A stretch of DNA of 64,000 bases. Source: a virus. Below, piece after piece: positions 42,501-64,000 of this stretch; within the stretch, counting starts at the first letter, position 1; every line of letters starts with the position of its first letter. Location of the stretch: the IMG/VR virus record IMGVR_UViG_3300042384_000288, positions 1 through 64,000 of that record, one strand, 5' to 3'. Made by a program: the position numbers and the translations under genes. Under the pieces are notes generated by a model, which ran no database searches, was not told where the DNA came from, and saw nothing but the letters and a program-made list of their open reading frames with translations.

Positions 42501-43276
42501 CGTTGCTAAGTGAAGCATCATTAGATTCTGTAATCCGTAGTACATATTCGGACTTGTTATTAGGCACCCGTGCGGAAGATATTAATATAGAAGGTGGAGA
42601 ATATGTTGATACGTACTCAAGCCATGCGCCAGAAGAACTAGTACCGGGGCGAGTATATGACGCATTGGATATGCAGATATATACAAAAATTAATGGTAAT
42701 ACAGAAGTTTTGGGATATCGCGTATTTACAAACATGCTAGACTATGTAACGTATACACGAATAGCAGATGCGCATTCAACAACACTAACGCAGGTATTAC
42801 TACCAACAGATACAGAAATTCATGTAGATGATGCTACCGTTTTAATGGAGCCAAATCCAGCAGCAAACTTACCCGGTATAGTGTTTATTGGTTGCGAAAG
42901 AATTGTCTACTATAGAATTAACAGAACTACTAACGTAATTGGCCTTATTCGTCGAGGCACACACGGTACGGCAATTATGCCAATACATGGCATAGGTGCA
43001 CGTGTAATTGACAGTGGACAAACACAGCATATACCTACAATAACAGTTGGCACAAATAACGCTAATGTTAGTGTTTGGTTTAACAGTGGAGCAAACGTTG
43101 CCACCGACGGTACTGGCTTCGAAGGTTCGACAACTGAGGCTGTTAATTTCTTAAAAGCCGCTACCGCAGGAAATGTACAAATAGCAACCGTTTCTGAGAT
43201 GATTATCACCGAGGATGCGGTAAATACATTAACGACTGAAGACGGCCAGATACTCATTGAGGAAGACCAAGCATGA
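30569..43276 (+). CDS. Giant baseplate/tail structural protein with beta-propeller repeats
   Basis: At 4,235 residues this one gene fills a fifth of the window. The N-terminus ([60 protein letters not shown]) matches large structural proteins I recall after gene 6 in marine T4-like phages, the gp7 position. Residues about 2260-2920 hold at least six spaced FG-GAP-type blades such as FGTSIKM...[27 protein letters not shown] and [18 protein letters not shown], consistent with an integrin-like beta-propeller. Near 3500 comes a conserved [16 protein letters not shown] segment. Residues 3590-3650 contain GYTTPP and GYSTTP elements. The start at 30569 is weakly supported by TTTAGAGAATGG. Its last four bases overlap the next gene. 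Confidence 0.7.
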
Positions 43277-47983: not shown

Positions 47984-49531
47984 ATGCCATACATTATAAC
48001 AACAACAGCAGGTGCAACGCTAACAACTGTAGCAGACGACGTCGTTAACACCACAAGTACTAGCCTAAGTTTAATTGGTAAAAACTATGCTGGCTATGGT
48101 ATATTCTTAAATGAAAATTTTGTAAGTCTATTAGAAAACTTTAATAACAGTACTGCACCTGCAGCACCTTTAACTGGACAATTATGGTTTGACAACTCTG
48201 GCGGCATATTAAAGTTTTACACAGGGGTTGTATGGAAACCGATCAGCACCAGTGCAGCCAGTGCAACTGAACCAAATAACCCTATAGTGGGTGATTTATG
48301 GTGGAATACTCTAACATCACAGCTTAATGTTCGTGGTCCTAGTAATTGGGTGGTGATCGGACCGGCATTTACTTCGATAGCAGGAACATCAGGCGCCATT
48401 ATAGAAACCATTTTAGATACTGTTTTATTAAGTCATGTTGTGGTTAACTTTTACATTAGTAATACCGTAGTTTCTATTCTAAGCAAAGACTCGTCGTTTA
48501 CTCCTCAAGTACCAATACCAGGATTTCCTACAATTAATCCCGGATTAAATTTAATATCAAGTTCGGTGCTGCCATCCAGTCAATTCTGGGGTAATTCTGT
48601 CAGCGCAGGTAGCGTAAGCGGAGTTAGCTTGACTAACTTCCTTAGATCAGATCAGGCTTCTACTAACGGTAGTAATACATTGACCGTGGGCAAACTTCAA
48701 GCAAATGCACATTTGCTTATTGATCCTACTCCAGCTGACGTACAGATTTATAGCAATAGTCCTGGTACATCTAAAGATATTGGAATATATGTCAACAGAG
48801 GCGGTACTCCGACATTAACTCAACGCTCAATTGCCACCACTGGCGGCACACAGTTTTATGCAAACTTAACTACAGTAAATGTAAATCCAACCAGCGACAA
48901 CGTAAGTGTAATTGGCAGTGGGACTACAAGATATGCAAATGTGCATAGCGTATCATTTACTGGAACAAACTTTTTCGGTACTGTGGGCACATTAACTACA
49001 TTAGGTGTAAGTGGTGTAACTACAGTTAACAGTGGTAATAATGTTACTGCTATTGTCAACGGTGGTACCAGCGGGATTGGTAATATCGGAACAGCGGCTA
49101 AGCCGTTTAACACAATTTTTGCTAGATCAACTTCGGCACAATACGCTGACTTGGCAGAACGTTTTGAAACTGACAGTCCTTTAATGCCAGGAACTGTGGT
49201 TGAACTTGGCGGTGCTAAAGAAATTACGCAAGCAGTTCAAGAACTAAGTGAAGAAGTGTTTGGTGTTATAAGTACATTACCAGGCTTCTTATTAAACGGT
49301 AATGCAGGAACAGATATAACTCATCCTCCGATTGCAGTTAATGGTCGAGTACCAGTGAGAGTAATAGGTACTTGTAGGAAAGGTGATCGATTAGTCAGCG
49401 CCGGCCGTGGTGTAGCACGTGCAGCTCAGAGAAGTGAACTTACTGCATTTAATGTAATTGGCCGCGCACTACAAGATAAAATTACCAACGAAGAAGGGTT
49501 GGTAGAAGCAATAGTTAAATTAAACAGTTAA
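47984..49531 (+). CDS. Tail fibre protein 3 of 3 with C-terminal chaperone-type domain
   Basis: This is a 515-residue paralogue. The shared N-terminus is present (LSLIGKNYAGYGIFLNENF, LLENFNNSTAPAAPLTGQLW). The last 145 residues differ: FARSTSAQYADLAERFETD, PGTVVELGGAKEIT, VFGVISTLPGFLLN and VPVRVIGTCRKGDRL. This is the fibre C-terminal domain with the YADLAE signature, often an assembly domain that may be cleaved off. I cannot assign a cleavage Ser. A GTTRYANVHS element precedes it, typical of beta-prism shafts. Confidence 0.78.
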   Translation: MPYIITTTAGATLTTVADDVVNTTSTSLSLIGKNYAGYGIFLNENFVSLLENFNNSTAPAAPLTGQLWFDNSGGILKFYTGVVWKPISTSAASATEPNNPIVGDLWWNTLTSQLNVRGPSNWVVIGPAFTSIAGTSGAIIETILDTVLLSHVVVNFYISNTVVSILSKDSSFTPQVPIPGFPTINPGLNLISSSVLPSSQFWGNSVSAGSVSGVSLTNFLRSDQASTNGSNTLTVGKLQANAHLLIDPTPADVQIYSNSPGTSKDIGIYVNRGGTPTLTQRSIATTGGTQFYANLTTVNVNPTSDNVSVIGSGTTRYANVHSVSFTGTNFFGTVGTLTTLGVSGVTTVNSGNNVTAIVNGGTSGIGNIGTAAKPFNTIFARSTSAQYADLAERFETDSPLMPGTVVELGGAKEITQAVQELSEEVFGVISTLPGFLLNGNAGTDITHPPIAVNGRVPVRVIGTCRKGDRLVSAGRGVARAAQRSELTAFNVIGRALQDKITNEEGLVEAIVKLNS

Positions 49532-49540
49532 GGAACTAAG

Positions 49541-50458
49541 ATGGCATACTCACAAGGTGGACTGATTGAAGCAACGGATTATAACAATCTTATCAACGGT
49601 TCCAATCAATTAAACACAGTATGGGGTGTAGGCAACGGAGACGCGGGCTACGGACAAACTGCCATTGGCACAGTGGTAGCTGGAACTACAGTAACAGCTA
49701 CACAGTGGGCAACATTGATTAATACCTTAAACAGTGCTAGAAATCATCAGAGTGGAGTAGGGTCCGGTATTAGTGCTGTTACAGCTGGCCAGACTATTAA
49801 CCACTTAAACACCTTACAAACAGAAATTAACACAGCATTTACTAACCGAGGATTGCGTAATGCAACGGGCAGCACAACCACAGGCACAACTGATACAACC
49901 AATCCAACAGCAGGTGCTACATCAGCATTTAGTTATTTTAGAGACACCAACGTAACATTTAGCAGTGCTAACGCTGCTCGCTACTTCTTCAACGCTGGCG
50001 GGCAGATTAACTTTGTATGCAGTGCTACAGACAATGCTGGCACTAGTCGCAGTCAAACACTCAGGGATATGATAAATCAAGTTGGCGGCTTAAGTGCATT
50101 CCGTAATACTACCAATACTGGTCGCACTGGTACTGGTGGTACTATAGTTACTAATAACACCAGCTTTGGTTACAGAAATTTAACAGCCAGTGCCCAAAAT
50201 GTAGTTGACAATGATATTAGTGGCACATACTCAGCACACGATGTTAAATTACAATTATTCTCAAACGGTATAGATACAACCGACGGCTCAAACGGCGCAT
50301 CAGTTGTGTTTAGGCTGTTAGCAACCGCAGCCGCAGATGATAGTTTTGGTGGTGGTATTAATATCTCTCTGTCAGTCAGAGCAGACATAGTGTTTCCATC
50401 AACTGCACACCTGACTAATGTGTGGGGCACACCTACAATCTCATTCGACGGTGCATAA
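49541..50458 (+). CDS. Tail-fibre-associated structural protein
   Basis: This 305-residue protein starts YSQGGLIEATDYNNLINGSN, a short helical-turn element I recall from phage structural proteins, followed by WGVGNGDAGYGQTAIG and a helix (WATLINTLNSARNHQSG). The C-terminal 150 residues are beta-rich (SYFRDTNVTFSSANAARYFFNAGG, DNDISGTYSAHDVKLQLF) and end in a VWGTPTISFDGA strand. It is the last gene before the strong terminator at 50495-50525, and so ends the late structural operon. Fibre tip, adhesin or baseplate decoration cannot be distinguished. Confidence 0.6.
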   Translation: MAYSQGGLIEATDYNNLINGSNQLNTVWGVGNGDAGYGQTAIGTVVAGTTVTATQWATLINTLNSARNHQSGVGSGISAVTAGQTINHLNTLQTEINTAFTNRGLRNATGSTTTGTTDTTNPTAGATSAFSYFRDTNVTFSSANAARYFFNAGGQINFVCSATDNAGTSRSQTLRDMINQVGGLSAFRNTTNTGRTGTGGTIVTNNTSFGYRNLTASAQNVVDNDISGTYSAHDVKLQLFSNGIDTTDGSNGASVVFRLLATAAADDSFGGGINISLSVRADIVFPSTAHLTNVWGTPTISFDGA

Positions 50459-50541: not shown

Positions 50542-50856
50542 ATGACAGAATTAGATCAACTAACCAAACAAATACGTCAAGCAACTGACTACCAAACTAA
50601 CAAGCAGATCCTGCGTGAAAAAATTCAAGCAGATTTACATTTTGCCTATAACGGAGGATTGTTCAAAACTTCGCCAGAACTAATTGGATTTATCAATGCC
50701 TGGGATAGTGAAACATTGTATTTAGAAGATACCTACGAAAATCCAATTGAAATCAATCGAGACGAATTTTTATCTTTGTGCCGGCAACAATACCAACAGG
50801 TAATGAACACTTGGCATATAGAACATGAAGAACTTAAACGTGCCCGCAAAGTCTAG
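50542..50856 (+). CDS. Conserved helical phage protein
   Basis: This 104-residue protein contains FAYNGGLFKTSPELIGFINAW, then LEDTYENPIEINRDEFL and QQYQQVMNTWHIEHEEL. I recall this type, with the LEDxYxNPxxxxR pattern, near fibre or terminase genes of marine T4-like phages, without known function. It is mainly alpha-helical. It is the first gene of the unit behind the consensus promoter and overlaps the next gene by 32 nt. Confidence 0.6.
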   Translation: MTELDQLTKQIRQATDYQTNKQILREKIQADLHFAYNGGLFKTSPELIGFINAWDSETLYLEDTYENPIEINRDEFLSLCRQQYQQVMNTWHIEHEELKRARKV

Positions 50857-51634
50857 AGGTGTTATATTATTTGCCTTTAATACTGCGGCAGTTGACTATG
50901 TGGCAATTGCAGATCAATCAGCGCGGCTTATACATCACACGCTAAATTTGCCTGTGACGCTGATAACTGACAAAGAAACAACTACTGAACACATTGATCA
51001 AACATTTGTAGTTGAAAACAATATAAACAATGTTCGCAAAGGTTATGCTAATTTAACAGCTTGGCGCAATGGCAATAGATACCAAGCATACGAACTAAGT
51101 CCTTATGATGAAACCTTACTCATTGACAGCGACTACCTAATGTTAGATCAGTCATTGTTAAAGTTGCTTGACTTAACTCAAGATTACCAAATTATGGGCA
51201 GTAATAAATTTCTCAAAGCAGTGTCGCCTACTCTGATGTCCGCTACCAGCATACCACAGGTATGGGCCACTGCGGTACTATTCAAAAAGACCTTAAAGTC
51301 TCAACTGTTATTTGCCCTAGTAGGAAGAATACAGCGCAATTATGATTACTATAGACGACTATACAACATAACTGCTACTAACTTTCGCAATGATTTTGCC
51401 TTTGCCATAGCCAACAACATTATCAACGGCTACGCACAAGACAACTTAATACCTTGGGCTATGCTGACCGCAGAAAATCCCGTAGTCAATATAGAAACAA
51501 CAACAAATGGATTAATAGTTAGAGAAGAGTCGCAGGCATATCTAATACCTCGTCAGAATCTACACATCATTGATAAAGATTATCTAACATCACCTAAGTT
51601 TGAACTATTTGTAGACAGTCTATGCCAAGAATAA
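50825..51634 (+). CDS. Glycosyltransferase-like protein (GT-A type)
   Basis: This 269-residue protein has a first half that fits a GT-A nucleotide-sugar fold: ILFAFNTAAVDYVAIAD as the first strand and helix, LPVTLITD, then YELSPYDETLLIDSDYLML with a DSD in the place of the metal-binding DxD. A helical second half follows. The ATG at 50825 lies inside the previous gene; MKNLNVPAKSRG is a weakly supported start and the fold begins at residue 12. The next gene is a paralogue and overlaps it by 13 nt. The sugar and acceptor are unknown. Confidence 0.5.
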   Translation: MKNLNVPAKSRGVILFAFNTAAVDYVAIADQSARLIHHTLNLPVTLITDKETTTEHIDQTFVVENNINNVRKGYANLTAWRNGNRYQAYELSPYDETLLIDSDYLMLDQSLLKLLDLTQDYQIMGSNKFLKAVSPTLMSATSIPQVWATAVLFKKTLKSQLLFALVGRIQRNYDYYRRLYNITATNFRNDFAFAIANNIINGYAQDNLIPWAMLTAENPVVNIETTTNGLIVREESQAYLIPRQNLHIIDKDYLTSPKFELFVDSLCQE

Positions 51635-52482
51635 CATCACACCAAGAACAGCAGGGATTTTTAACTATTGCTCAGAACACAGTAGATACTGACTATCTAA
51701 AGTTAGCCTATGTTCAAGCCATGAGCATTAAACTTGTAATGCCGCAGAGCAAATATGCAGTATTAGTTGATCACAATACTTTAGCGAGCGTAACTGAACA
51801 ACATAGACGAGTATTTGACTATGTTATCACTATTGACAATGACATGGCTGCCGACGAAACTTGGAAACTCAGTAATGAGTGGCAGGTGTTTGAACTAACT
51901 CCATTCAAAGAAACTATTAAATTAGAAAGTGATATTGTGTTTACTCGTAGTATCGAGCATTGGTGGACAGCGTTCAGACTGCGTGACATAGTGTTAAGCA
52001 CCGGCTGTAGAGATTATCGAGGTCAGTTGAGCACAGCAAGAGACTATCGTCGAGTATTTGATGATAACCAACTGCCTGATGTATACAATGGTCTAATGTA
52101 TTTTAGATACACAAGAACAGCTACGCAGTTTTTTAACATAGCTCAACAGATATATGCTAATTGGGATTATGTCAGTCAACAACTTTTAAAGAATTGTAGA
52201 GACCCGAGCCCAACCACTGACGTGGTCTATGCACTATCAGCAAAGATATTGGGAGTACAGTTATGCACGTTGCCTTCGGCAGACTTTATTAACTTTACTC
52301 ATATGAAGCCTGCTATTAATGCATGGTCTATTCGACCTTGGTGTGAACAGGTAGTATGTGAAACTGACCTACCTATGTTGCGCATAGCCAATCAAAATCA
52401 ATATCACCCAGTACACTATCATGACAAGACATGGGTTACTGATGACATTGTTAAGGAGTATGAGCATGAATTCTTTAGATGA
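51622..52482 (+). CDS. Glycosyltransferase-like protein (GT-A type), paralogue
   Basis: This 286-residue protein has the same plan as its neighbour: FLTIAQNTVDTDYLKLAYVQ, YAVLVDH, then VFELTPFKETIKLESDIVF, where ESD replaces DSD. VYNGLMYFRYT and later TDVVYALSAKIL match the acceptor-side segments typical of such proteins. Changing the first Asp of the DxD motif may weaken metal binding. It begins 12 nt before the end of the neighbour and overlaps the next gene by 17 nt. Confidence 0.5.
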   Translation: MPRITSHQEQQGFLTIAQNTVDTDYLKLAYVQAMSIKLVMPQSKYAVLVDHNTLASVTEQHRRVFDYVITIDNDMAADETWKLSNEWQVFELTPFKETIKLESDIVFTRSIEHWWTAFRLRDIVLSTGCRDYRGQLSTARDYRRVFDDNQLPDVYNGLMYFRYTRTATQFFNIAQQIYANWDYVSQQLLKNCRDPSPTTDVVYALSAKILGVQLCTLPSADFINFTHMKPAINAWSIRPWCEQVVCETDLPMLRIANQNQYHPVHYHDKTWVTDDIVKEYEHEFFR

Positions 52483-52813
52483 ATTAATTAAGGCATTTAG
52501 TTTAATAGAAGAAATAGTTGAAGAGCCATTTGAATACAGAATACATTATGACGACGCTGGTAATATTACCATGTGCACCATGCAGGATCATCCTGTAGAA
52601 ACTGATTATATTGTAGTGACTAAAGAAGAATATGATAACTACTATCAATACACTGTAGTCGACGCTAAACTTAAAAAGATTGACAGGAATCCAGGATATA
52701 ATGTACAATTAATTAAGAGCAATAGTGGATATCGAGTGGTAAAGAACCACGCCGGCCTTATTGTAGAAGGCAACGAAATCTATGAGAATATAGAATACTA
52801 TGCCGCTAATTGA
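52466..52813 (+). CDS. Conserved hypothetical protein
   Basis: This encodes 115 residues from ATG 52466, which has AAGGAG 7 nt before it; the ATG at 52460 is too close to that site. The protein holds EEPFEYRIHYDDAGNITMCT, DYIVVTKEEYDNYYQYTVVD and a C-terminal strand pair (GYRVVKNHAGLIVEGN). It looks like a small beta domain with one helix. I recall similar small proteins in marine phage genomes without known function. Its 3' end overlaps the antisense homing endonuclease gene by 16 bp. Confidence 0.6.
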   Translation: MNSLDELIKAFSLIEEIVEEPFEYRIHYDDAGNITMCTMQDHPVETDYIVVTKEEYDNYYQYTVVDAKLKKIDRNPGYNVQLIKSNSGYRVVKNHAGLIVEGNEIYENIEYYAAN

Positions 52814-53475
52814 CGGCGTTTTTCTTGAGCCAATTTAACTCCGGCCGAAATCCTTGCTTTTGTTTCGTCTGATACTCCGCGAGTTCTATTAGATTCTGCA
52901 ATTTTTGCTTTAGATTCAGCTGTGTGTTGTGGTCCAGAAATTTTACCTTTCTTATGTGATGGCCGACCTTTTAGTGTATTTGATATTTTAGCTTTGTTTT
53001 CTTCTGACATTGGCCCTTTTAATTTTCCTTTTAATCTTGCAGCTATATTAGCCGCATGTTCTGCGGTTTTCTTTTTACCCTTGCTTGCTGATGACATTTT
53101 TGCTTTAGTCTCGGCAGATAAAGGAATACCTATACAGCGGAGTGTTAATAGTATAGCATATTCTTTTTTGATTTGGTTATACAACCTAGAATTTATATAT
53201 CGTTGTTGATATAATCTGCTGCGTTTCATTCCTATTGCGGCATGTATCATTTTTTTGTATGCTGTACCCGATGTCATTTTTGGCAACAACATATGACATA
53301 TAAAATGCTCACGTCCAGTTAATTTAACTAAATTGGCGCTACTATTGTTGCCGCCTAGGGATTTAGGAATAATATGATGTTTTTCGATATAAACATCTTC
53401 TAATAACTCTCTTGACTTTGCTTTATTAATGATGTTATAATATATGTTAGTGTATTTGTTGTTTATAAATATCAT
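52798..53475 (-). CDS. HNH homing endonuclease with NUMOD3 repeats
   Basis: This 225-residue protein has the HNH core EKHHIIPKSLGGNNSSANLV followed by LTGREHFICH, with the His pair, Asn and distal His in place. Then come KAK and DET-type NUMOD3 repeats (LSAETKAKMSSASKGKKK, MSEENKAKISNTLKGR, HTAESKAKIAESNR, VSDETKARISAGVK), which wrap the DNA target. It is the only minus-strand gene between 50465 and the right edge. It fits exactly between two plus-strand genes, and its start lies over a late box of the opposite strand. This is the pattern of a mobile gene inserted between cistrons. Confidence 0.9.
   Translation of the reverse strand: MIFINNKYTNIYYNIINKAKSRELLEDVYIEKHHIIPKSLGGNNSSANLVKLTGREHFICHMLLPKMTSGTAYKKMIHAAIGMKRSRLYQQRYINSRLYNQIKKEYAILLTLRCIGIPLSAETKAKMSSASKGKKKTAEHAANIAARLKGKLKGPMSEENKAKISNTLKGRPSHKKGKISGPQHTAESKAKIAESNRTRGVSDETKARISAGVKLAQEKRRQLAA
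53464..53471 (+). promoter_or_regulatory. Late promoter box TATAAATA before the glycosyltransferase/radical SAM unit
   Basis: Exact TATAAATA, 19 nt before the ATG at 53491 with an AGGA between. It is the only late box I see in the accessory island. Confidence 0.65.
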
Positions 53476-53490
53476 ACAGGACCTTTAAAA

Positions 53491-54393
53491 ATGACTACTA
53501 TTGTAGATGTGGCAGATTTATCAACTATTTATCTAAGTTATGACGAGCCGAGAAAAGAAGAGTTTTGGATTAAGATTCAAAACATGGTTCCGTGGGCTAA
53601 ACGTGTAGATGGGGTTAAGGGCAGTGATGCCGCGCACAAAGCCGCAGCGTCAGCCAGTGATACCGATCGCTTTGTGTTAATCGACGGAGATAACATACCA
53701 GACCCTGCCTTCTTTAATCTTCAGTTGGTATTGGATAACATATCCAGTAATAAAGTTTTTCGGTGGCGAGCCAAGAATCAAATAAACGGACTACAGTACG
53801 GTAACGGTGGACTAAGCTGCTGGACTAAAGAGTTTATAGAAAATATGCAGACACATGAAGCCAGCGATGGCAGTGCGGCTAACGATGTAGAGTTTTGCTT
53901 CTATCCTAATTATTGGGCAATGAGTGATTGCTACAGTACAACATACCCTAACGCTACACCATTTCAAGCATGGCGAGCAGGATTCCGCGAAGGCGTTAAG
54001 ATGTGTTTAGATCGTGGAGCAAAGCCCCCAATGGAAGAATTTGAGCGACGTGTACATAGTCGTAACTATGATAACTTATGTATTTGGCAAACCGTCGGAG
54101 CAGATGTTGAGAATGGATTTTGGGCTATACTCGGAGCACGTCAAGGTACGTATCTAACAATGTTAGAAGATCAATGGGACTACAAACAAGTACAAAATTT
54201 TGATGCGCTTGAAAAACTATGGAATGAATACGAAAGTATCAATGAACCCATAGATCACTGTAACCACTTAGGTGATGTATTACGTACTCGTTTAGGGTTG
54301 CCTATTGTAGACATGAATCCAGATGAAAGCAAGTTCTTTAAACATCATTATAAAAGTAACTTTAAGAATCAAGGCATAATGGTGCGTGAATAA
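53491..54393 (+). CDS. Putative glycosyltransferase (cyanophage-type)
   Basis: This 300-residue protein belongs to a type I recall from marine T4-like phages. IYLSYDEPRKEEFW opens it, then MVPWAKRVDGVKGSDAAHKA, FVLIDGDNIPDPAFF with DGD in the DxD place, and a C-terminal half with the NDVEFCFYPNYW segment. The opening and the DxD support a GT-A fold. The start at 53491 follows the late box. It overlaps the next gene by 8 nt and begins a chain of five overlapping genes. Confidence 0.5.
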   Translation: MTTIVDVADLSTIYLSYDEPRKEEFWIKIQNMVPWAKRVDGVKGSDAAHKAAASASDTDRFVLIDGDNIPDPAFFNLQLVLDNISSNKVFRWRAKNQINGLQYGNGGLSCWTKEFIENMQTHEASDGSAANDVEFCFYPNYWAMSDCYSTTYPNATPFQAWRAGFREGVKMCLDRGAKPPMEEFERRVHSRNYDNLCIWQTVGADVENGFWAILGARQGTYLTMLEDQWDYKQVQNFDALEKLWNEYESINEPIDHCNHLGDVLRTRLGLPIVDMNPDESKFFKHHYKSNFKNQGIMVRE

Positions 54394-55339
54394 ATACACA
54401 TTAGAATTAGAAAATGACCAATTATTAAATATAATTCCACTGGTTAAATTCTTAAAAGATCACGAAGGAAAAGATATATCTTTATCTGTAAATCAAGAAT
54501 CGCATTGCCTTGAACATTGCAGAGTTTACGAGTTGCTTGATCTGTTTAATTTTAAGTCGGTAGTAATATATACGCAAAACTCTATTGAACAGCACAAGAA
54601 ATATATTATAGTATCGCGAGCAAGATTTTATTGGCTTCGCAAAGCAAAACTAGAAGCAGACCTAACAAAAAATTATGTATGGGATCAAACAAAAGTGTTT
54701 GGGTGCTTTTATGGCAGACCGTCTGCTGTTAGATTAGGTATAGCAGGTTATCTAACTAAAAATTATTTAGAAAAGTCATTAATAAAAATTAAATTTGATA
54801 CAACACACGAAGATTTAAGAAAACAATTTGAAATGACTAAAATATTTTCTTGGGATGTTAACAGTTTAAATAACATAGACTTATTATTATCTACTATACA
54901 GTTATCTACAGATTATGCATATAATTTACAGTCGGGTGAATATGATTACACCCATACTCTATCTAACGATTATAGAAGTATTTTTGTTGACATCATAAGT
55001 GAGCCTAACAATATAGGAAATAGCTTTTATCCGTCTGAAAAGTTTGCTCGTGCGGTGCTTTGTAAAAAACCTTTTATCGTTATGGCTCCAAAACATTATT
55101 TAAAATATCTTAAACAAATGGGATTTAAAACATTTAACAATTGGTGGAGTGAATCATACGATGATTTAGAAGTTAAGGATAGATATTTTGCTATACTACA
55201 GTTAATAGATCAAATAGCTTTATTAACAATAAATCAATTGGAAGAACTAAATTCTGAGATGTCGTCTGTCACAGAGCACAACTATCAATTATTGATTAGC
55301 GGTAATTATAGTGAAATTATAAAACCAATTAATGAATAA
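54386..55339 (+). CDS. GT-B/GT10-like glycosyltransferase A
   Basis: This encodes 317 residues from GTG 54386, overlapping the previous stop. The C-terminal part shows the family hallmark FVDIISEPNNIGNSF, then PSEKFARAVLCKKPFIVMAP and FKTFNNWWSESYDD. The glutamate-lysine followed by a helix and K-PFIV strand resembles the donor-binding segment of GT10 fucosyltransferases. A paralogue lies at 56177-57202. The gene is strongly AT-rich. Its donor and acceptor are unknown. Confidence 0.45.
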   Translation: MNKYTLELENDQLLNIIPLVKFLKDHEGKDISLSVNQESHCLEHCRVYELLDLFNFKSVVIYTQNSIEQHKKYIIVSRARFYWLRKAKLEADLTKNYVWDQTKVFGCFYGRPSAVRLGIAGYLTKNYLEKSLIKIKFDTTHEDLRKQFEMTKIFSWDVNSLNNIDLLLSTIQLSTDYAYNLQSGEYDYTHTLSNDYRSIFVDIISEPNNIGNSFYPSEKFARAVLCKKPFIVMAPKHYLKYLKQMGFKTFNNWWSESYDDLEVKDRYFAILQLIDQIALLTINQLEELNSEMSSVTEHNYQLLISGNYSEIIKPINE

Positions 55340-56180
55340 ACCTATATTACCGTTTGTTGAAACTATGATTACACAGGTATGTAATTTAAGTTGTCACGGC
55401 TGCACTAACTACAGTGACCTACAACATGAAGGTTATGTTTCGTGGACGCAGGGCAAACAGGAATTAGAAGCATGGCTTACTCGAGTCGATATTTTAGATT
55501 TTGGTATATTGGGTGGTGAACCGCTAGTTAATCCAGAAGTGGACAAATGGATTGTCGGCCTACGAGAATTGATGCCCAATGCACAGATACGTTTTACTAC
55601 TAACGGTATCAAGTTGGATAAAAAGTTTCATCTGATTCAATTACTGCACGATATCGGTAACTGCGTGATTAAGATTGGCGTACACGTAACCGATCCTAAA
55701 TTAGAAGCAACTATACAACGCATATATGACAGTTATGATTGGGAACCAGTTACTGAATACGGTATAGACAGACATATTACAGGCGACCGTGTACGCTTTC
55801 ATGTTAAACGACCGGACACGTTCTATAAAACATATCAGAGCACTTATGCTGATATGAAACCACATAATAGTAATCCTGCAGAAGCGTTTGCTATTTGCTG
55901 TCAACAAACCTGTCCACTATTATATCAAGGCAAGCTGCATAAATGTAGTACTGCTGGGCTAATAAAAGAAACATTAGCTAAAGTGGGCAATCCTAACATG
56001 GATCTGTGGGAGCCAGTTATTGATCATGGTATAGGAACCGATTGTAGTGATACGGAATTAGAGAGATTTTTGGATAACTTCGGCAAACCTAATGACATTT
56101 GCCGCCAATGTCCCACCTTAGCGGATACCAATGCTAAAATTATTCATATTGACAATGTATCAACAAAAAAGATTAAATGA
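55332..56180 (+). CDS. Radical SAM enzyme with C-terminal Cys-rich region
   Basis: This 282-residue protein has CNLSCHGC (C17, C21, C24), the canonical CX3CX2C cluster for S-adenosylmethionine cleavage, GILGGEPL at 58-65 (the GGE motif) and FTTNGIKL. The C-terminal part has further cysteines (AICCQQTCPLL, then KCS and ICRQCP), probably binding one or more auxiliary clusters of the SPASM/twitch type. That layout favours peptide or sugar oxidation rather than tRNA modification. It lies between GT-B-like paralogues and overlaps both by 4-8 nt. Confidence 0.85.
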   Translation: MNKPILPFVETMITQVCNLSCHGCTNYSDLQHEGYVSWTQGKQELEAWLTRVDILDFGILGGEPLVNPEVDKWIVGLRELMPNAQIRFTTNGIKLDKKFHLIQLLHDIGNCVIKIGVHVTDPKLEATIQRIYDSYDWEPVTEYGIDRHITGDRVRFHVKRPDTFYKTYQSTYADMKPHNSNPAEAFAICCQQTCPLLYQGKLHKCSTAGLIKETLAKVGNPNMDLWEPVIDHGIGTDCSDTELERFLDNFGKPNDICRQCPTLADTNAKIIHIDNVSTKKIK

Positions 56181-57202
56181 ATATAAGCATACAAACATTG
56201 GATAGAAAGATTTGGCGCAAAGATTTACTAGTAGATGCGTTACGTCAATGCTACAGCACAAATCAGCCAATTCTATTAGATTTTAGCCCAGAGGGATCTT
56301 GCGCAGAAGCGTTGGGATTATACAAACTATTGGATGATTTCTGTCATCGATCAGGGTATAGCAAGCAACTTATTACAATTAAAACAGCTAATATGCTTGA
56401 GCATCATGCTGAATATAATATTATTAAAGATGTTAGCTGCTGGTATGAAGTAGCTAAAATTAAAAAATGGCTGATAGGCAAGACTTTAGATATCCGCTAT
56501 ACCCCAACTAAACATTTTGCTAATTTTTCTAGTAGAAGTAATTGGTATAGATTATGGATTGCAACTATATTAGACAAATATTATGCTGATAAAACGCTAC
56601 AAACATATCATTATGATCCGCTGAGAGAAAATTTTAATGGTAACGGTTATGTTGGATTAGATGATTTAATAAATTATAAATGTGACATTGTAACTGACGC
56701 TGTGGAATTTATTAAAACTTGTCCGCGCACCTTAGATATAGAATATTTACAAAATTTAGATAATTGTAAAGATAGCATATTTCAACATGAAAATAGTTAT
56801 TATCCAATACAACACCCATCAAATTTAAATTTGTTGCAATATTATAATGATATATTTGTTGATGTTGTATGTGAACCAAATGTTAGTGGTAATTGTTTTC
56901 TAGTAACGGAAAAACTATGGAGATGCATTGTCGCACGTCGTCCATTTATAGTAATGTCAAATCCTAATTACCTTGCTAATCTACATAAATTAGGATTTAA
57001 AACATTCAACGACTACTGGTCCGAGGAATATGATTATTATAGGCAAACAAACCGCATACATAAAATTGAATCATTATTAGCTAGTATTGTAACAATGGAT
57101 ACCGGTGAATCATTGACTAAAATGAAAGATCTATTAGATCATAATTATAATGTATTCATGATGTTGAATCAGTTTAAACTTCGAGGGGCATTTATTCGAT
57201 GA
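56177..57202 (+). CDS. GT-B/GT10-like glycosyltransferase B
   Basis: This 341-residue protein overlaps the radical SAM gene by ATGA. The hallmark FVDVVCEPNVSGNCF, then TEKLWRCIVARRPFIVMSN and FKTFNDYWSEEYD, aligns with the protein at 54386-55339. N-terminal LLDFSPEGSCAEALGLYKL resembles the first part of that paralogue (LSVNQESHCLEHCRVYEL). The two are thus duplicates of one ancestor, now separated by the radical SAM gene. Confidence 0.45.
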   Translation: MNISIQTLDRKIWRKDLLVDALRQCYSTNQPILLDFSPEGSCAEALGLYKLLDDFCHRSGYSKQLITIKTANMLEHHAEYNIIKDVSCWYEVAKIKKWLIGKTLDIRYTPTKHFANFSSRSNWYRLWIATILDKYYADKTLQTYHYDPLRENFNGNGYVGLDDLINYKCDIVTDAVEFIKTCPRTLDIEYLQNLDNCKDSIFQHENSYYPIQHPSNLNLLQYYNDIFVDVVCEPNVSGNCFLVTEKLWRCIVARRPFIVMSNPNYLANLHKLGFKTFNDYWSEEYDYYRQTNRIHKIESLLASIVTMDTGESLTKMKDLLDHNYNVFMMLNQFKLRGAFIR

Positions 57203-58353
57203 AAATAACTGTGTGGGCACGCGACCCGTGGTGGGATCAATATTACTACGGACTATTTAAAGATATGGCTGAAATTATGCCCGACAATAGCGAGATGCAT
57301 TATATTATATACGATCCTATCTCACGTAATTTTGAAAAAATAAAAAAAACTACCTACACTGAAAAATTAGTAGGATTGATGATTATAGAAGAACTACAGT
57401 ACGAATGTGACTACACTAGTAATCAATTCTCTCCCGCTGCGGCACACATTATCGATTTATGTAATTTAAATCCCAATACACAGTTTATTATATTTACGGA
57501 AATTGAATATTTTAATAAAGAAGTTCCGGAGATCAGTAATCTCCGGATTGTGCCAGTGGGCACCGGCATAATGTTTGAGCATGCGCATCGTGATACAATA
57601 ATCCCAGTAACTGAAAAGAATTTGTTATCTACTCAAACATTTGTGAGTTTAAATAGATCAGTTCGACCTAGTAGAGTTACATTACTAAGTTATCTATTAG
57701 GAACAAGCCTGGCGGACTGCGGATACCTTTCATTTAATTCAATGGATTTAATTAAAGATCATTCTTCTTGGTTGAGTTATTGTCCGTGGGGTATACCGGA
57801 TAAATACCGTCAGGAAATATTAGATGGTTTTGAATTATTAAAAGTTGGCCACGGGATTACCCAATCGATAACTGCTGTTGATAATCTCTATAATATACAG
57901 GCTTGCGATAATGTTACTAATTTTAATGAATTTTTGCGAAGTATTTATAAAAATACATTTGTGGAAATTGTGTCAGAAACAACGTTTACTTTACCGGGTA
58001 TATTAGTTACAGAAAAAACAAAAAATAGTATATACGGATATAACTTTCCTATTTTTGTTGCTGGAAAAGGCATAGTTAATCATTTAAAAAATGATCTTGG
58101 ATTAGATATGTTTGACGATATTATTGATCATAGTTACGATACTATTGAAGATAATGTTACACGCATCACTACAGCTATAGATTCTAATAAACGACTGCTA
58201 ACAGATTCTTCGTATATTAAGAGTTGCTGGCAAAATAATTTTGATAGATTTACTAGTAACGTACACATATTACGTACCCAAATTGAAAAATTTTATCGGC
58301 AACGAGCATGGTCTAAATTAACTGATATATTGAGAGAATGTGGCTATAATTAA
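57199..58353 (+). CDS. GT-B/GT10-like glycosyltransferase C (diverged)
   Basis: This 384-residue protein has the same C-terminal plan in diverged form: FVEIVSETTFTLPGILVTEK, NFPIFVAGKG, LGLDMFDDIIDHSYD. The N-terminus (WARDPWWDQYYYGLF) and a central LNRSVRPSRVTLLSYLLG, FNSMDL and PWGIPDKYRQEIL are its own. I recall proteins with the NRxxRxxR-type helix and TEKT segment in phages and marine bacteria annotated as hypothetical. It ends the chain of overlapping genes; 74 nt follow before the next unit. Confidence 0.4.
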   Translation: MKITVWARDPWWDQYYYGLFKDMAEIMPDNSEMHYIIYDPISRNFEKIKKTTYTEKLVGLMIIEELQYECDYTSNQFSPAAAHIIDLCNLNPNTQFIIFTEIEYFNKEVPEISNLRIVPVGTGIMFEHAHRDTIIPVTEKNLLSTQTFVSLNRSVRPSRVTLLSYLLGTSLADCGYLSFNSMDLIKDHSSWLSYCPWGIPDKYRQEILDGFELLKVGHGITQSITAVDNLYNIQACDNVTNFNEFLRSIYKNTFVEIVSETTFTLPGILVTEKTKNSIYGYNFPIFVAGKGIVNHLKNDLGLDMFDDIIDHSYDTIEDNVTRITTAIDSNKRLLTDSSYIKSCWQNNFDRFTSNVHILRTQIEKFYRQRAWSKLTDILRECGYN

Positions 58354-58427: not shown

Positions 58428-59819
58428 ATGATAAAAAGTAATTTCCTGACTGCTGCAGAAGAAATGAAGGACAAGTTAGGTCCTGCTCTCTGCTTGGCTA
58501 AGTGGCAACAGGTAAGTCTACACTTGCCTACAGGACTTACTAACAGTTGCTATCACCCACCCTTACATGAGATCGACAGTGCTCCGTTGCTATTCAATCC
58601 CGGTGCGCTACATAATACTGATTACAAGAAACAACAGCGCAAACTCATGCTAGAGCAAACACGCCCGGCTGAATGCAGCTACTGCTGGAGTGCCGAAGAT
58701 AACCAGCAACTAAGCGATAGACACTATCGTTCCGGTGAGCCGTGGGCGGCTGAACACTATGAAACGATAGTAAACGCACCATGGGACCAAGACGTTGTAC
58801 CAAGTTATGTTGAAGTAAACTTCAGTCATGGCTGTAACTTAGCTTGTTCATATTGCAGTCCGCAGTACAGTACAGAATGGGGCAAAGATATTGGCAGATG
58901 GGGAGCATACCCAACTAGTACTCCGCACAATGCGCCCGAACACTTTCAAGGTCGACGTAAACCTATTCCAGTTCGTGAAGCTAATCCCTATGTAGAAGCA
59001 TTTTGGCGTTGGTGGCCTGAATTATACCCTAAACTTAAACATTTCCGTATGACAGGTGGTGAACCACTTATGGATAAGAATACGCATCGTGTGTTTGATT
59101 ATATACTTGCCTTGCCTAAGAGTGACCTGCACGTAGATGTTACTAGCAACTTCAGTGTTGAGCCTGAACTGTTTGACAAGTATCTAGACAAAGTAAAACA
59201 GCTATGTGAGGGTGAACGCATCGAACACTTTATGCAATATGTTAGCTTAGATACCGGACTTCCTGAACATGCAGAATATATACGCGATGGGCTATATTGG
59301 GATAGAGTCATGCGCTATACTAACGATTTCCTAGCAGTAGTGCCATACCGCAATAGCCTAACGTTTATTATTACAATGAACAATTTAAACATACTTGGAC
59401 TAAAACTTTTATTGACACAGATATTAGAGATGCGTAACAAATACAGCACAACTTATCAACGTGTGTGGTTTGATACGCCACTATTACGTAGCCCAACCTA
59501 TCAAAGTTTACAAATACTACCAGCAAGTTATGTTCGCATATTAGAAGATGTTGTTACATTTATGCGAGCAAATCAAGCAGATGAAACTGCTGATAACTTT
59601 GGGGGCTTTAAAGATTACGAAATACAACGTATGGAACGTAATGTAGATTGGATGAAACAAGGTTGCGAACTTGCCGCAGACTATGTTACAATACAAAGAG
59701 CAGACTTCTATAGATTTTTTAATGAATACGATAAACGCAGAGGGTTAAACTTTTTGGAAACATTTCCACAAATGAAAGAGTTTTGGCAGGAGTGCAAATA
59801 CCATGCCGAAACTAACTAA
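58428..59819 (+). CDS. Radical SAM enzyme with N-terminal iron-sulfur module (array member 1)
   Basis: This 463-residue protein begins with four cysteines in the order C22-x18-C41 ... C83-x2-C86 (LCLAKW, SCYHPPLHE, ECSYCW), a half-SPASM or twitch-type pattern, here before the catalytic core. The radical SAM core starts VEVNFSHGCNLACSYC with C136, C140, C143, followed by FRMTGGEPLMD and VTSNFSV. Helices with TFIITMNNLNILG and a C-terminal RRGLNFLETFPQM end the protein. It overlaps the next paralogue by 17 nt. Substrate unknown; no precursor peptide of standard RiPP type is seen next to it. Confidence 0.85.
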   Translation: MIKSNFLTAAEEMKDKLGPALCLAKWQQVSLHLPTGLTNSCYHPPLHEIDSAPLLFNPGALHNTDYKKQQRKLMLEQTRPAECSYCWSAEDNQQLSDRHYRSGEPWAAEHYETIVNAPWDQDVVPSYVEVNFSHGCNLACSYCSPQYSTEWGKDIGRWGAYPTSTPHNAPEHFQGRRKPIPVREANPYVEAFWRWWPELYPKLKHFRMTGGEPLMDKNTHRVFDYILALPKSDLHVDVTSNFSVEPELFDKYLDKVKQLCEGERIEHFMQYVSLDTGLPEHAEYIRDGLYWDRVMRYTNDFLAVVPYRNSLTFIITMNNLNILGLKLLLTQILEMRNKYSTTYQRVWFDTPLLRSPTYQSLQILPASYVRILEDVVTFMRANQADETADNFGGFKDYEIQRMERNVDWMKQGCELAADYVTIQRADFYRFFNEYDKRRGLNFLETFPQMKEFWQECKYHAETN

Positions 59820-61179
59820 CGAAACAGATGTAGAATATAAGCGCAGAGTGATTGACATTAAGTCAGCGAGCTTCTGTGCGGCTAAATGGTATAACGCTAC
59901 TATATGGTTAGGGTCGGGACAGACTACTAGCTGTCATCACCCATTGCCTCATGCTATTGACCTAGAAGCAATTAAAACTAATCCCAGTGCTATCCATAAC
60001 ACTCCGCAAAAGAAATTAGAGCGTAAACAGATGCAGGTGGGTGAACGTCCCAGTGGATGCGAATACTGCTGGAAGATTGAAGACATGTACAAGGATCCTA
60101 AATATACCGGAGTTGATGTTGGCACTCCAATTAGTGATCGTGTATACAAAACAGTAATTTATGATGATAAGGATTTAGATCTTGCCTACAACACCGACTA
60201 CCAAGAAGATGTTAATTTACAAACTTTGGAAATCGCATTCGACAGAACTTGTCAGCTTGCTTGTAGCTACTGTAACCCTGCTTTCAGTACCGCCTGGGTT
60301 AGAGATATTAAACGCAATGGAGCCTATGAACACCTTGTATCTGACGGACGCAATCACTTTACTCACACTCACGATCATAGCCAACTGTTTACTATTGATC
60401 AAGTCAATCCTTACGTTGAAGCATTCTTTAAGTGGTGGGAGTCAGACCTACACAAAACATTAAAAGAACTGCGTATCACCGGCGGCGAACCGCTTATGTC
60501 GGGGTACACATGGCGCCTAATAGAATGGTTCCAACAGAATAAAGGACAAAGCACCACACGTCTTGCTATCAACAGCAACTTGTGCTTTGAACAAGATAAG
60601 TTAGAGAGGTTATTAGATGCTACACAAGGTATCGAACTGGATTTGTACACTAGCAACGAAAGCTGGGGTCGCCACGCAATGTATATACGCGATGGTTTGG
60701 ATTGGGATCAGTGGGTTAATAATGTTATGTTCTTATTGGATAGCGGTAAGTTGCGTGGCCTACATGTTATGTGTACCATCAATGCTCTATGCTTATTAAG
60801 CATAACAGATCTACTATGGATGATTGTTAAATTTAAACGCAAATACGGTAAGGATAGTATTAACTTTAGCCTAAATATCCTACGTTTTCCTAGTTTTCAA
60901 AGCCCACTAATATTACCGTTAGAATTGCGCAAACAGTTTGCCAAGGATCTAGGACAGTTTGGTACTGCGGCACACGAACATCTACATGAATATGAATTCA
61001 ATCAATTACAAAGATTAATTGAATACCTGAACACAGTAGACAGTCCACATAGCGGAGCATTATCACGTGAAATATTACAGCGTGACTTTAAGAACTTTTA
61101 TCAGCAATACGACCAACGCCGCGGTCTAGACTTTAAATATACATTTACACAATTAGCTAACTGGTACGATACACTATGA
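59803..61179 (+). CDS. Radical SAM enzyme, paralogue of array member 1 (array member 2)
   Basis: This 458-residue protein is collinear with its neighbour: C25-x18-C44 ... C86-x2-C89 (FCAAKW, SCHHPLPH, GCEYCW), core TCQLACSYC with C150, C154, C157, LRITGGEPLMS near 223-233, INSNLCF, and the C-terminal RRGLDFKYTF. The shared ends and motif order show a tandem duplication followed by divergence. Its start lies inside the previous gene and its stop overlaps the next start (ATGA). Both copies keep all cluster cysteines, so both are probably active. Confidence 0.85.
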   Translation: MPKLTNETDVEYKRRVIDIKSASFCAAKWYNATIWLGSGQTTSCHHPLPHAIDLEAIKTNPSAIHNTPQKKLERKQMQVGERPSGCEYCWKIEDMYKDPKYTGVDVGTPISDRVYKTVIYDDKDLDLAYNTDYQEDVNLQTLEIAFDRTCQLACSYCNPAFSTAWVRDIKRNGAYEHLVSDGRNHFTHTHDHSQLFTIDQVNPYVEAFFKWWESDLHKTLKELRITGGEPLMSGYTWRLIEWFQQNKGQSTTRLAINSNLCFEQDKLERLLDATQGIELDLYTSNESWGRHAMYIRDGLDWDQWVNNVMFLLDSGKLRGLHVMCTINALCLLSITDLLWMIVKFKRKYGKDSINFSLNILRFPSFQSPLILPLELRKQFAKDLGQFGTAAHEHLHEYEFNQLQRLIEYLNTVDSPHSGALSREILQRDFKNFYQQYDQRRGLDFKYTFTQLANWYDTL

Positions 61180-63731
61180 GCGACGAGCCAAGCAAAAAAT
61201 TAACAGTACATCACAAAAATCACAATTACAATACTCGTAAACCTGTTTATATACACGAAGATGATTTAACCAAAGATCATACATATAAACTGATAGAAAG
61301 TAAACACTTCTGCATGATACCGTGGACGCACATGCATGGTATTCCCGATGGTCGAGCATATCCCTGCTGTCTGGGTGAAATGCATTTGCCGATTGGTAAT
61401 TTCAAAGACAATACCATGAAGGAAGTATGGAATGGAACTCCGTACAAACAGATGCGTCTAAACATGTTAGAAGATAAACCCAGCAAAGAATGCACACGCT
61501 GTTACGAGCAAGAAGATAATGGATTCTTTAGTATGCGCAATAGCCAAAATAAAAACTTTGGTCATCATATTGCATTAACAGATAAAACCAATGCCGATGG
61601 AAGTTTAGATGACTTTAAACTACGCTACTATGATGTACGTTTCTCTAATCTATGTAACTTTAGTTGTCGTACCTGTGGTAGTTTGTTCAGCAGTAGTTGG
61701 TACGCAGAAGAAACTAAACTATTTGGTAAATTAAACCATCCTCAGATTATGTTTGCTGGTAAAAATAAAGATGACATGTGGGAACAGATGCAGGAACATA
61801 TCCCATACCTAGAACAGATTTACTTTGCCGGCGGTGAACCATTGATTATGGAAGAACACTATCGCATTCTCGAAGAATTAGTCAAACGTGAAATGTTCCA
61901 TGTACGATTGATCTATAATACAAACTTTAGTCACATACGTCTTAAAGATAAGATGGTGTTTGAATACTGGAAACTGTTTGATACAGTTTGTGTAGGTGCA
62001 AGTTTAGATGACTCGTATCTCCGCGGAGAGTACATACGTAAAGGTACAGACTGGGCAGAAACAGTAGAAAACCGTCGCAAAATGATTGAAATTTGCCCCA
62101 ATGTTGACTTTTATGTTAGCAGTACAGTTAGTATACTCAATGCCTGGCATTTGACTGAATTCCATAAAGAATGGGTCGACCTTGGTTTGATTAGAGCAAT
62201 GGATTGGAATGTAAATATTTTGCAAAGTCCAGAACGTGATCGAATTGATGTATTACCAATTCAATTTAAAGACAGAATTAAACAACGAGTTGAAGAACAT
62301 ATTGCCTGGCTAGCTCCAATAGATCAACTGCAACGGGCTACTTCTGGTTATAAAGCTATTATTACATTCATGTATCAAGATGATAAGAGTCACTTATTGG
62401 GAGAATTCTTTAAGATAAATGATCAAACTGATGAATTCCGTAGAGAAAAATTTGAAACGATATTTCCTGAATATCGAGAGTTGCGCAATCACTTAGGCAT
62501 TAATAAAACGCATGATAGTATTTGTATGTTGCCGTGGGTCAGTTTAGAAGCTAGCCCAGTGGGTACTGCTCGTCCGTGTTGTCTGGCTAAAGATGAAATT
62601 ACCAAACCCAACGGCACTCCGTATAAACTAAAAGAAAGTTCATTGGCAGAAATTTATAACAGTGAATATATGCAGAATCTTCGACAACAATTTCGACGCG
62701 GTGAAAAGCCTAGTACATGTAATCGTTGTTGGAGTGAAGAAGATGCCGGCATAGTTAGTAAACGTATCAACAGTAGAATTAGACTTAAAGAATTCTATCC
62801 TATCGTTGATTGGAAAAATGACACGCCAGATCAACTATGGTTTATTGATTTAAAACTAGGTAATATCTGTAATCTTAAATGTCGTATATGTGGATCATGG
62901 TCTAGTAGTAAATGGGCCAAAGAAGAAATTGATTACGAGTCTAGGAAATACAAAGAGGTACAAGGATACAATCGCAAACAACATAGTGCATACAAATTTC
63001 TACAAGATGGCACATGGCCAAGAGAAAGCGAAGTATTTTGGGAAAATTTAAAAGAACTACTGCCCAATATCAAGTACTTTGAATTTACCGGTGGAGAACC
63101 ATTCTTAATTGAAGAACATTTTAAACTATTACGCTATGCAGTCGACCACGGGTACAGTAGTCGTATAGATATACACTATAATACCAATGGTACAGTATAT
63201 CCGACAGATGAAGAAGCTAGTCTATGGGGTAAATTTCGAAATGTTGAGATCGCTGTTAGCATAGATAATACCGAAGAACGATTTGAATATGAACGTTACG
63301 GTGCCAACTGGAAAGAAGTAACAGTCAATGTAGTTAAATTTAATGCAATGAGAACTAATTTAATTAAAACACAAGTTTGTATGACTGTAAACATACAAAA
63401 TGTTTATTACTTGCCAGAATTGTGTGATTGGGTTAATACTCAATCTTTTGATATGGTGCATTTTAATATGTTACATGATCCCAATGTAATGTGTATTAAT
63501 CGTATGACTCCTGTTGCACAAAAATTAGTTATAGATAGATTAACCGTTTATCCGTTCAATGTCAAACATCGAGTAGAAATTGATAAAATAATTCAATTTA
63601 TTGAAAACGGCCAAGGCAGCGATGGTACAGAATTTGTACAGAAAATGCAACAGACTGATGTGTATCGTGAGCAGAGTATGTTAACTACACATAGAGAAAT
63701 TGCACTAGCAATGGGCTATGTTGAAGCCTAG
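61176..63731 (+). CDS. Double radical SAM protein (two full modules in one chain; array member 3)
   Basis: The chain has 851 residues in two collinear halves. Half 1: FCMIPW (C46), YPCC (C64, C65), VWNGTPYKQMR, ECTRC (C106, C109), radical SAM LCNFSCRTC (C160, C164, C167) and FAGGEPLIMEEHYR near 217. Half 2: ICMLPW near 450, RPCCLAK near 467, ICNLKCRIC near 565-572 and FTGGEPFLIEEHFK near 634. CNRCW lies near 514. The N-terminal unit of each half matches the C-x17-C ... C-x2-C pattern of the other array members, with the DG-x-x-x-P-CC and EVWN-type features of SPASM-like domains. Both halves keep every cluster cysteine. An unbroken frame through the junction argues against a missed stop. Confidence 0.85.
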   Translation: MSDEPSKKLTVHHKNHNYNTRKPVYIHEDDLTKDHTYKLIESKHFCMIPWTHMHGIPDGRAYPCCLGEMHLPIGNFKDNTMKEVWNGTPYKQMRLNMLEDKPSKECTRCYEQEDNGFFSMRNSQNKNFGHHIALTDKTNADGSLDDFKLRYYDVRFSNLCNFSCRTCGSLFSSSWYAEETKLFGKLNHPQIMFAGKNKDDMWEQMQEHIPYLEQIYFAGGEPLIMEEHYRILEELVKREMFHVRLIYNTNFSHIRLKDKMVFEYWKLFDTVCVGASLDDSYLRGEYIRKGTDWAETVENRRKMIEICPNVDFYVSSTVSILNAWHLTEFHKEWVDLGLIRAMDWNVNILQSPERDRIDVLPIQFKDRIKQRVEEHIAWLAPIDQLQRATSGYKAIITFMYQDDKSHLLGEFFKINDQTDEFRREKFETIFPEYRELRNHLGINKTHDSICMLPWVSLEASPVGTARPCCLAKDEITKPNGTPYKLKESSLAEIYNSEYMQNLRQQFRRGEKPSTCNRCWSEEDAGIVSKRINSRIRLKEFYPIVDWKNDTPDQLWFIDLKLGNICNLKCRICGSWSSSKWAKEEIDYESRKYKEVQGYNRKQHSAYKFLQDGTWPRESEVFWENLKELLPNIKYFEFTGGEPFLIEEHFKLLRYAVDHGYSSRIDIHYNTNGTVYPTDEEASLWGKFRNVEIAVSIDNTEERFEYERYGANWKEVTVNVVKFNAMRTNLIKTQVCMTVNIQNVYYLPELCDWVNTQSFDMVHFNMLHDPNVMCINRMTPVAQKLVIDRLTVYPFNVKHRVEIDKIIQFIENGQGSDGTEFVQKMQQTDVYREQSMLTTHREIALAMGYVEA

Positions 63732-64000
63732 TACACTTTGTCTTGCGCCCTGGGTACATACATACCTAAGCCCTCAGACCGAACGACGTATGTGCTGTGC
63801 CAGTCGCGAACCTGCGCAAAATTTTGAACAATATATTGACGTCTCGGCGGGTACAGGGCGTTATATACCAATAACTCTGGATGAACACTGGAATAGCGAG
63901 CACATGCGGTCGGTCCGTCGTCGCATGATTGCTGGGGAAACCCTCCCAGAGTGTGAGGTATGTAATGATAAGCTGTTGAACACATCAGTTTACCGTAGTT
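63718..64000 (+). CDS. Radical SAM array member 4, N-terminal module only (cut by window edge)
   Basis: The ATG at 63718 lies 14 nt before the stop of the double enzyme. The 94 visible codons encode LCLAPW (C8), RRMCC (C26, C27), RRRMIAGETLPECEVC with a C-x2-C, and then the edge. This matches the N-terminal module of the other three array proteins, including the C-x17-C spacing. The radical SAM core itself should start just beyond the window. Base composition here is visibly richer in G and C than in the genes before it. Confidence 0.65.
   Translation, partial: MLKPSTLCLAPWVHTYLSPQTERRMCCASREPAQNFEQYIDVSAGTGRYIPITLDEHWNSEHMRSVRRRMIAGETLPECEVCNDKLLNTSVYRS

Follow-up and report, generated by a model that had tools for sequence, protein, structure and literature searches.

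An ordered array of five N-twitch radical SAM enzyme types in uncultured T4-like phages, possibly part of a glycan-tailoring pathway

Introduction

Radical S-adenosylmethionine (SAM) enzymes have been counted in phages before but, in the literature searched, not dissected. The T4-like marine phage TARA_ERS488813_N000010 was reported in 2017 to hold 12 radical SAM genes (PMC5332604), radical SAM cassettes were described in 2020 in the host-recognition region of pelagimyophages (PMC7029224), and a Baltic Sea study listed 261 phage genes annotated as the radical SAM enzyme ahbD, whose function it called speculative (PMC9301287). Sugar decoration of phage particles is itself established, with glycans on capsid and tail-tube proteins of mycobacteriophage virions (Freeman 2023, as cited in PMC12619734). 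Here we analyse an array of radical SAM genes in IMG/VR record IMGVR_UViG_3300042384_000288, a 111,107-bp virus contig whose initial 64,000 nucleotides (nt) are referred to as the window. Many uncultured aquatic phages carry this array with the same gene order. It resolves into five conserved types arranged in fixed succession, whose partners are met again on bacterial chromosomes, and it can thereby be treated as one definite pathway whose product can be tested for.

The record has a T4-type major head protein (phrog_138). The public records closest to it by this protein come from jumbo phages, among them Sinorhizobium phage Phosso, Vibrio phage 2.275.O and Pseudomonas phage PA5oct (66-68% identity); the contig is therefore likely to be part of a larger genome.

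Results

Five radical SAM modules with an N-terminal twitch

Positions 58428-65004 of the record hold four + strand genes that encode five radical SAM modules, successive genes overlapping by 17, 4 and 14 nt. The genes are given here with their scores against NCBIfam NF033640 and their clade in the module tree described below.

58428..59819, + strand: type A N-twitch radical SAM enzyme, 463 amino acids (aa); 282.6 bits; clade A support 96; AlphaFold2 predicted local distance difference test score (pLDDT) 95.0.
59803..61179, + strand: type B N-twitch radical SAM enzyme, 458 aa; 285.6 bits; clade B support 99.
61176..63731, + strand: fused double enzyme of types C and D, 851 aa; 706.6 bits in two stretches; clade C support 87, clade D support 92.
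61248-62507, + strand: type C half of the 851-aa protein (about residues 25-444).
62490-63728, + strand: type D half of the 851-aa protein (about residues 439-851).
63718..64000 in the window, continuing to 65004 in the record, + strand: type E N-twitch radical SAM enzyme, 428 aa when whole; clade E support 100.

All five cores match NF033640 (N_Twi_rSAM, 'twitch domain-containing radical SAM protein') over its full length. For the three genes complete in the window the scores lie well over the curated cut-off of 170 bits and far past chance; for type E, the 94 aa within the window score 70.1 bits, the core continues as an above-cut-off Radical_SAM match, and the whole protein falls in clade E. 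The Pfam SPASM profile matches the N-terminal stretch (residues 46-110 in the double protein), and in the 851-aa protein SPASM and Radical_SAM each match two stretches, giving two full copies of the module. Both superfamily motifs, CX3CX2C and GGE, are present. Invariant in the five-module alignment are the twitch cysteines C22, C41, C83 and C86, the CX3CX2C cysteines C136, C140 and C143, and G210-G211-E212. The first-pass annotation, made from the letters of the window, had proposed at least four complete cores in a run of four overlapping genes, the last of them truncated at the edge, with each core preceded by a C-x17/18-C...C-x2-C module resembling a SPASM or twitch auxiliary-cluster domain. 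The open reading frames (ORFs), NF033640 scores, SPASM matches and module alignment agree with this description. They do not agree with its view that the order of the domains is new, since NF033640 already models an N-terminal twitch followed by the core; the layout is that of a known subfamily. The refutation that this annotation had foreseen, placement in a characterised family with a known role, is thus only half borne out: the family has a name but no assigned reaction.

The loss of cluster cysteines in most homologues, which the same annotation had named as a refutation, is clearly not seen. From 107 viral loci we obtained 469 modules, 347 of them non-redundant (<85% identical). All seven cysteines are retained in 346 of these 347 and GGE in every one, figures to be read with a bias in mind: the seed module of each locus was identified in part by its core motif, which is not true of the neighbouring modules. 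The spacing from the first to the second cysteine is 17 in 193 modules and 18 in 152.

For the AlphaFold2 model of type A (predicted template-modelling score, pTM, 0.91), most Foldseek matches were radical SAM enzymes, the top four rows being taken by CteB, AprD4 and BlsE. AprD4 acts on paromamine and BlsE on cytosylglucuronate, whereas CteB is a sactisynthase.

Five types in a fixed order

In the module tree, each window module falls into a different one of five supported clades. Trees of the core and C-terminal part alone recover all five clades completely; with the twitch by itself, B and E are still recovered in full, and 63-70 members of the other types fall in clean clades. Shuffling between twitch and core is not seen, and the agreement of the separate trees indicates that the two parts have travelled together. 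Columns conserved in a type-specific manner number 70 in B, 67 in E, 15 in C, 14 in A and 5 in D, which fits the idea that some of the types, at least, catalyse different reactions.

The exact order A-B-C-D-E occurs in 43 of the 107 loci and A-B-C-E-D in 7; many of the remainder are truncated or carry inserts. Adjacent genes overlap or are separated by at most 20 nt in 75 of 81 B-C, 50 of 59 C-D and 31 of 54 D-E pairs. The C-D fusion found in the window is shared by 14 loci of one clade, C and D being separate genes in most others, and A and B are fused in a single locus. The size of the array, for which the first-pass annotation knew no precedent, is not exceptional: besides the 12 radical SAM genes of the 2017 report and the pelagimyophage cassettes, one record surveyed here contains 21 NF033640 matches.

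Partners downstream of the array

Downstream of the array lie the conserved protein cl10, SGNH/DUF6071 proteins and a NodU-type carbamoyltransferase.

64982-66136 of the record (L008:982-2136): cl10 conserved protein with invariant H138, E142, H174, E175 and E177.

The invariant His and Glu residues of cl10 might bind metal. Among 79 loci seeded with cl10, radical SAM genes are present in 78, the carbamoyltransferase in 64 and SGNH proteins in 56; loci seeded with the upstream protein cl1 contain radical SAM genes in 74 of 79 cases, the other five being short loci that end just beyond cl1. Both sets have some contigs in common with the first locus set, and the three surveys are therefore not independent. 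The carbamoyltransferase was found in 24 of 25 phage records. NodU/TobZ-type enzymes O-carbamoylate sugars. Further enzymes of nucleotide-sugar metabolism or sugar decoration, namely an epimerase, a DegT aminotransferase and a Gfo/Idh/MocA oxidoreductase, are encoded downstream in the record on the opposite strand.

Virion-like and glycosyltransferase-like genes upstream

Upstream partners were counted in the 83 loci with more than 7 kb of upstream sequence. Proteins cl1 and cl2 each occur in 80 of these, cl3 in 78, cl5 in 77, and cl6 and cl8 in 73 each. In the window the block reads as follows.

47984..49531, + strand: cl8-type virion or tail-fibre-like protein, 515 aa; phrog_14394 (virion structural protein) and phrog_19602 (tail fiber protein).
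49541..50458, + strand: cl5-type Ser/Thr/Asn/Gly-rich putative virion protein, 305 aa, judged by position and a common ARYFFNAGG motif; no PHROG match.
50542..50856, + strand: cl6 small conserved protein, 104 aa.
50825..51634, + strand: cl3 glycosyltransferase-like protein, 269 aa, a relative of cl2 (hhalign probability 99.4, E 4e-21); no Pfam match.
51622..52482, + strand: cl2 weakly glycogenin-like (GT8) protein, 286 aa; PDB profile search gives glycogenin-1, E 0.003, profile positions 4-107.
52421..52813, + strand: cl14 small accessory protein, 130 aa; 25 of 83 loci.
53491..54393, + strand: cl1 conserved partner with a weak GT-A-like fold, 300 aa; AlphaFold2 pLDDT 75.9.
54386..55339, + strand: cl16-type protein, 317 aa, with a C-terminal stretch in common with 56177-57202; suspected by eye alone to be a glycosyltransferase; no Pfam or PHROG match.
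55332..56180, + strand: sixth radical SAM gene, 282 aa, MoaA-like core without the N-terminal twitch; PF04055 49.7 bits.
56177..57202, + strand: cl16-type protein, 341 aa, same cluster as 54386..55339; no Pfam or PHROG match.
57199..58353, + strand: cl12-type protein, 384 aa; no Pfam or PHROG match.

The sixth radical SAM gene sits just outside the span that the first-pass annotation had described and was not included in it. Both cl8 and cl5 are rich in Ser, Thr, Asn and Gly, which in cl5 together make up 46% of residues on average versus about 20-25% in the enzymes; the cl5-type protein is a candidate carrier of the modification. Foldseek matches of cl1 are weak and mostly to glycosyltransferases and nucleotidyltransferases (best E 0.0087). 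As a homologue of cl2, cl1 was tried and rejected (hhalign negative), and PDB profile searches with cl10, cl1 and cl3 gave no useful matches.

Several other reading frames near these genes were noted. One resembling, by eye, an HNH homing endonuclease lies at window positions 52798-53475 on the - strand, opposite to the cassette and between cl14 and cl1. A 1019-aa protein further on (L008:6179-9238) has repeated segments and a C-terminal part that by eye resembles cl1, with no Pfam match; matches in BFVD to long proteins of uncultured phages fit this likeness. The structural region contains a single 4235-aa ORF (window 30569-43276, + strand). Elsewhere, all on the - strand, are a GTP cyclohydrolase I gene recognized by Pfam and ORFs that resemble QueE and DpdA by eye, with no Pfam match (L009:10576-11259, L009:8554-9411 and L010:504-2069, respectively); together they may belong to a system of this phage for 7-deazaguanine modification of DNA.

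Counterparts on bacterial chromosomes

Chromosomal copies of all five types occur in Bacteriovoracaceae (L124, L153, L317 and L318), with a locus at the ribosomal L21 and Obg genes in two genomes and cl10 in one. A contig of this family carries B-E-D-C-D, A-B and A types beside L21 and Obg; in a further genome, A and B lie beside apparently the same genes, with D-E-C elsewhere and cl10 at a third site. Across 129 Bacteriovoracales genomes, cl10 is strongly matched in 18, of which 16 have A/B-type enzymes (expected 6.4, p 8e-7), and E-type and B-type enzymes coincide in 5 (expected 0.56, p 2e-5), p-values that carry no correction for kinship. In one genome A and cl10 overlap as a two-gene operon (L319), and in another both adjoin an ABC-2 permease and its ATPase (L320). 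A third genome, of Bacteriovoracales (L321), has B followed by an ABC-2 permease, an ABC ATPase, PqqD, a DegT aminotransferase and a carbamoyltransferase. In Bacteroidetes, a radical SAM gene overlaps a carbamoyltransferase gene within a polysaccharide-type cluster of GDSL, UbiA, glycosyltransferase, epimerase and UDP-sugar dehydrogenase genes. Five loci on genome contigs were not counted as bacterial because they hold the phage cassette (L119-L121 and L123) or closely related radical SAM genes (L122); we treat them as phage contigs binned into metagenome-assembled genomes (MAGs). The conserved A-B-C-D-E order, the C-D and A-B fusions and the co-occurrence of the types with cl10 on bacterial chromosomes support the earlier proposal that the genes form one pathway.

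A separate expansion of the family was seen in the 2.9-Mb Elusimicrobia MAG MJ-2014_bin-0981 (G049, L125-L137), in which NF033640 matches 84 times; many of these matches belong to giant proteins (540-1160 aa) encoded in tandem, and the three examined with Pfam have N-terminal TPR repeats. This is possibly the largest radical SAM expansion in the survey.

Distribution among sequenced phages

No tblastn match to cl1, cl2 or cl10 was found in 50,697 public phage records, which suggests that the system is hidden in uncultured phages. The double protein matched only Vibrio phages K566 and K567 and one single-cell contig among public phage records, a lower bound because tblastn is insensitive at about 20% identity. 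Plasmids gave no match to type A. Vibrio phage K566 (L156, OZ196521.1 155004-180296) holds a cluster of several distantly related radical SAM genes and is a possible laboratory model; K566 and K567 are the sole isolates in which N-twitch-like radical SAM genes were found. A literature search returned no paper describing the pentad or its partners, a weak negative given that subscription papers and preprints fell mostly outside its coverage.

Discussion

A pathway for tailoring sugars

The five conserved types, their cluster ligands and fixed order, the linkage to glycosyltransferase-like, SGNH and carbamoyltransferase genes and the bacterial sugar-gene loci are the basis on which we infer a substrate, individual reactions and a site of display. 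Because the recurring neighbours are those of sugar chemistry, carbohydrate tailoring is the best reading, and we give an even chance to the array being the radical core of such a pathway in the fibre, or host-recognition, region of a jumbo T4-like phage. The position of the phage cassette against fibre genes suggests further that the product is attached to fibre proteins of the virion itself, the Ser/Thr-rich ones whose genes lie immediately upstream, a proposal that we hold only tentatively and that may well be wrong. In such a pathway, cl3, cl2 and cl1 would build or transfer a sugar. In each of the enzymes A-E a [4Fe-4S] cluster held by CX3CX2C would cleave SAM, with the four-cysteine twitch cluster serving as electron relay or substrate ligand, and each enzyme would contribute one distinct hydrogen-abstraction step on the sugar, be it epimerisation, dehydrogenation, deoxygenation or bond formation. 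Protein cl10 would be a dedicated partner, of type A foremost, and the SGNH hydrolases and carbamoyltransferase would complete the product. The presence of AprD4 and BlsE within the top four Foldseek matches supports this assignment.

Several observations weigh against it. The main soft point is the weakness of the glycosyltransferase assignments, cl2 and cl1 reaching best E values of only 0.003 and 0.0087 and cl3 being connected through cl2 alone. Foldseek TM-scores for the radical SAM model are low (about 0.3-0.5) and the best match, CteB, modifies peptides; PqqD, usually a companion of peptide pathways, is present in one bacterial locus. Since cl1 was not matched in the Bacteriovoracaceae that have the radical SAM types, by a search that lacked a positive-control signal, the proposed transferase step would not be universal. 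Finally, in 24 of 26 matching records the head protein shares 67-94% identity with that of the window phage; with contigs shared between surveys, part of the synteny reflects common descent.

Other substrates

The five enzymes could instead modify protein directly, as in the maturation of ribosomally synthesized and post-translationally modified peptides (RiPPs) or of structural proteins, introducing cross-links, epimers or thioethers into cl8, cl5 or another virion protein. Characterized SPASM/twitch enzymes mostly act on peptides or proteins (PMC6231123), and the match to CteB, the abutting fibre genes and the one bacterial PqqD gene all point this way. The same search that finds PqqD in three Bacteriovoracales genomes, however, finds it in none of 25 phage records, and array genes that mostly overlap or lie within 20 nt of each other leave scant space for a precursor gene; a RiPP precursor within the array is disfavoured on both counts. 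Thioethers are unlikely because cl5 and cl8 are poor in Cys, and the linkage to carbamoyltransferase and SGNH genes fits sugars better, so that we regard direct protein modification as unlikely. A glycan might also be displayed on the envelope of the infected host rather than on the virion, for receptor masking or superinfection exclusion. In pelagimyophages, glycosyltransferases of the host-recognition region were argued to modify the O-chain (PMC7029224), and the bacterial relatives sit in exporter-linked clusters. The phage cassette nevertheless directly adjoins fibre genes of its own strand, and no exporter is found among its recurrent genes, although no genome-wide search was made; envelope display strikes us as a poor prospect.

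Hypermodification of DNA bases, with the glycosyltransferase-like enzymes and the carbamoyltransferase acting on modified nucleotides, is very improbable. Phage DNA hypermodification pathways also use radical SAM enzymes, which counts in its favour. So do the glycosyltransferases of known phage pathways (reference cited in PMC12619734) and, in the record, genes for GTP cyclohydrolase I, thymidylate synthase and dCMP deaminase together with the QueE-like and DpdA-like ORFs seen by eye. The cassette, though, is joined to fibre genes and not to nucleotide genes, and the same enzyme types stand beside polysaccharide-type exporters on bacterial chromosomes.

Returning to carbohydrate tailoring, we think it somewhat short of an even chance that a hitherto undescribed pathway of five N-twitch enzymes, cl10 and the carbamoyltransferase operates both in uncultured jumbo phages and in Bacteriovoracales, and that its product is a sugar or glycoconjugate of new chemistry, displayed on virions and also on the cells of those bacteria. 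If so, phages would build a virion coat by oxygen-sensitive radical chemistry, and the surface chemistry of jumbo phages would be linked to that of relatives of predatory bacteria.

Comparison with known systems

Classical SPASM/twitch enzymes such as BtrN, MoaA, SkfB, CteB and anSME likewise combine a CX3CX2C core with an auxiliary-cluster module, and BtrN has four cysteines for one auxiliary cluster (PMC6231123), the number also available in the phage modules. In the classical enzymes the auxiliary domain follows the core, whereas in the phage modules the twitch precedes it; the phage enzymes would work like twitch enzymes without having the classical layout. The NF033640 model covers that layout and is silent on five ordered types, fusions, cl10 and a linked carbamoyltransferase. 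TARA_ERS488813_N000010, compared by its description alone, similarly has many radical SAM genes in one T4-like genome, described without family, order, partners or pathway. The pelagimyophage host-recognition cluster shares the placement of radical SAM cassettes beside tail-fibre genes in marine T4-like phages but was described as variable cassettes, with no ordered pentad or partner set. For mycobacteriophage virion glycosylation, the cited passage mentions neither radical SAM enzymes nor a carbamoyltransferase. Set beside these systems, the array is apparently a widespread, ordered variant of a known enzyme family that has not been described so far.

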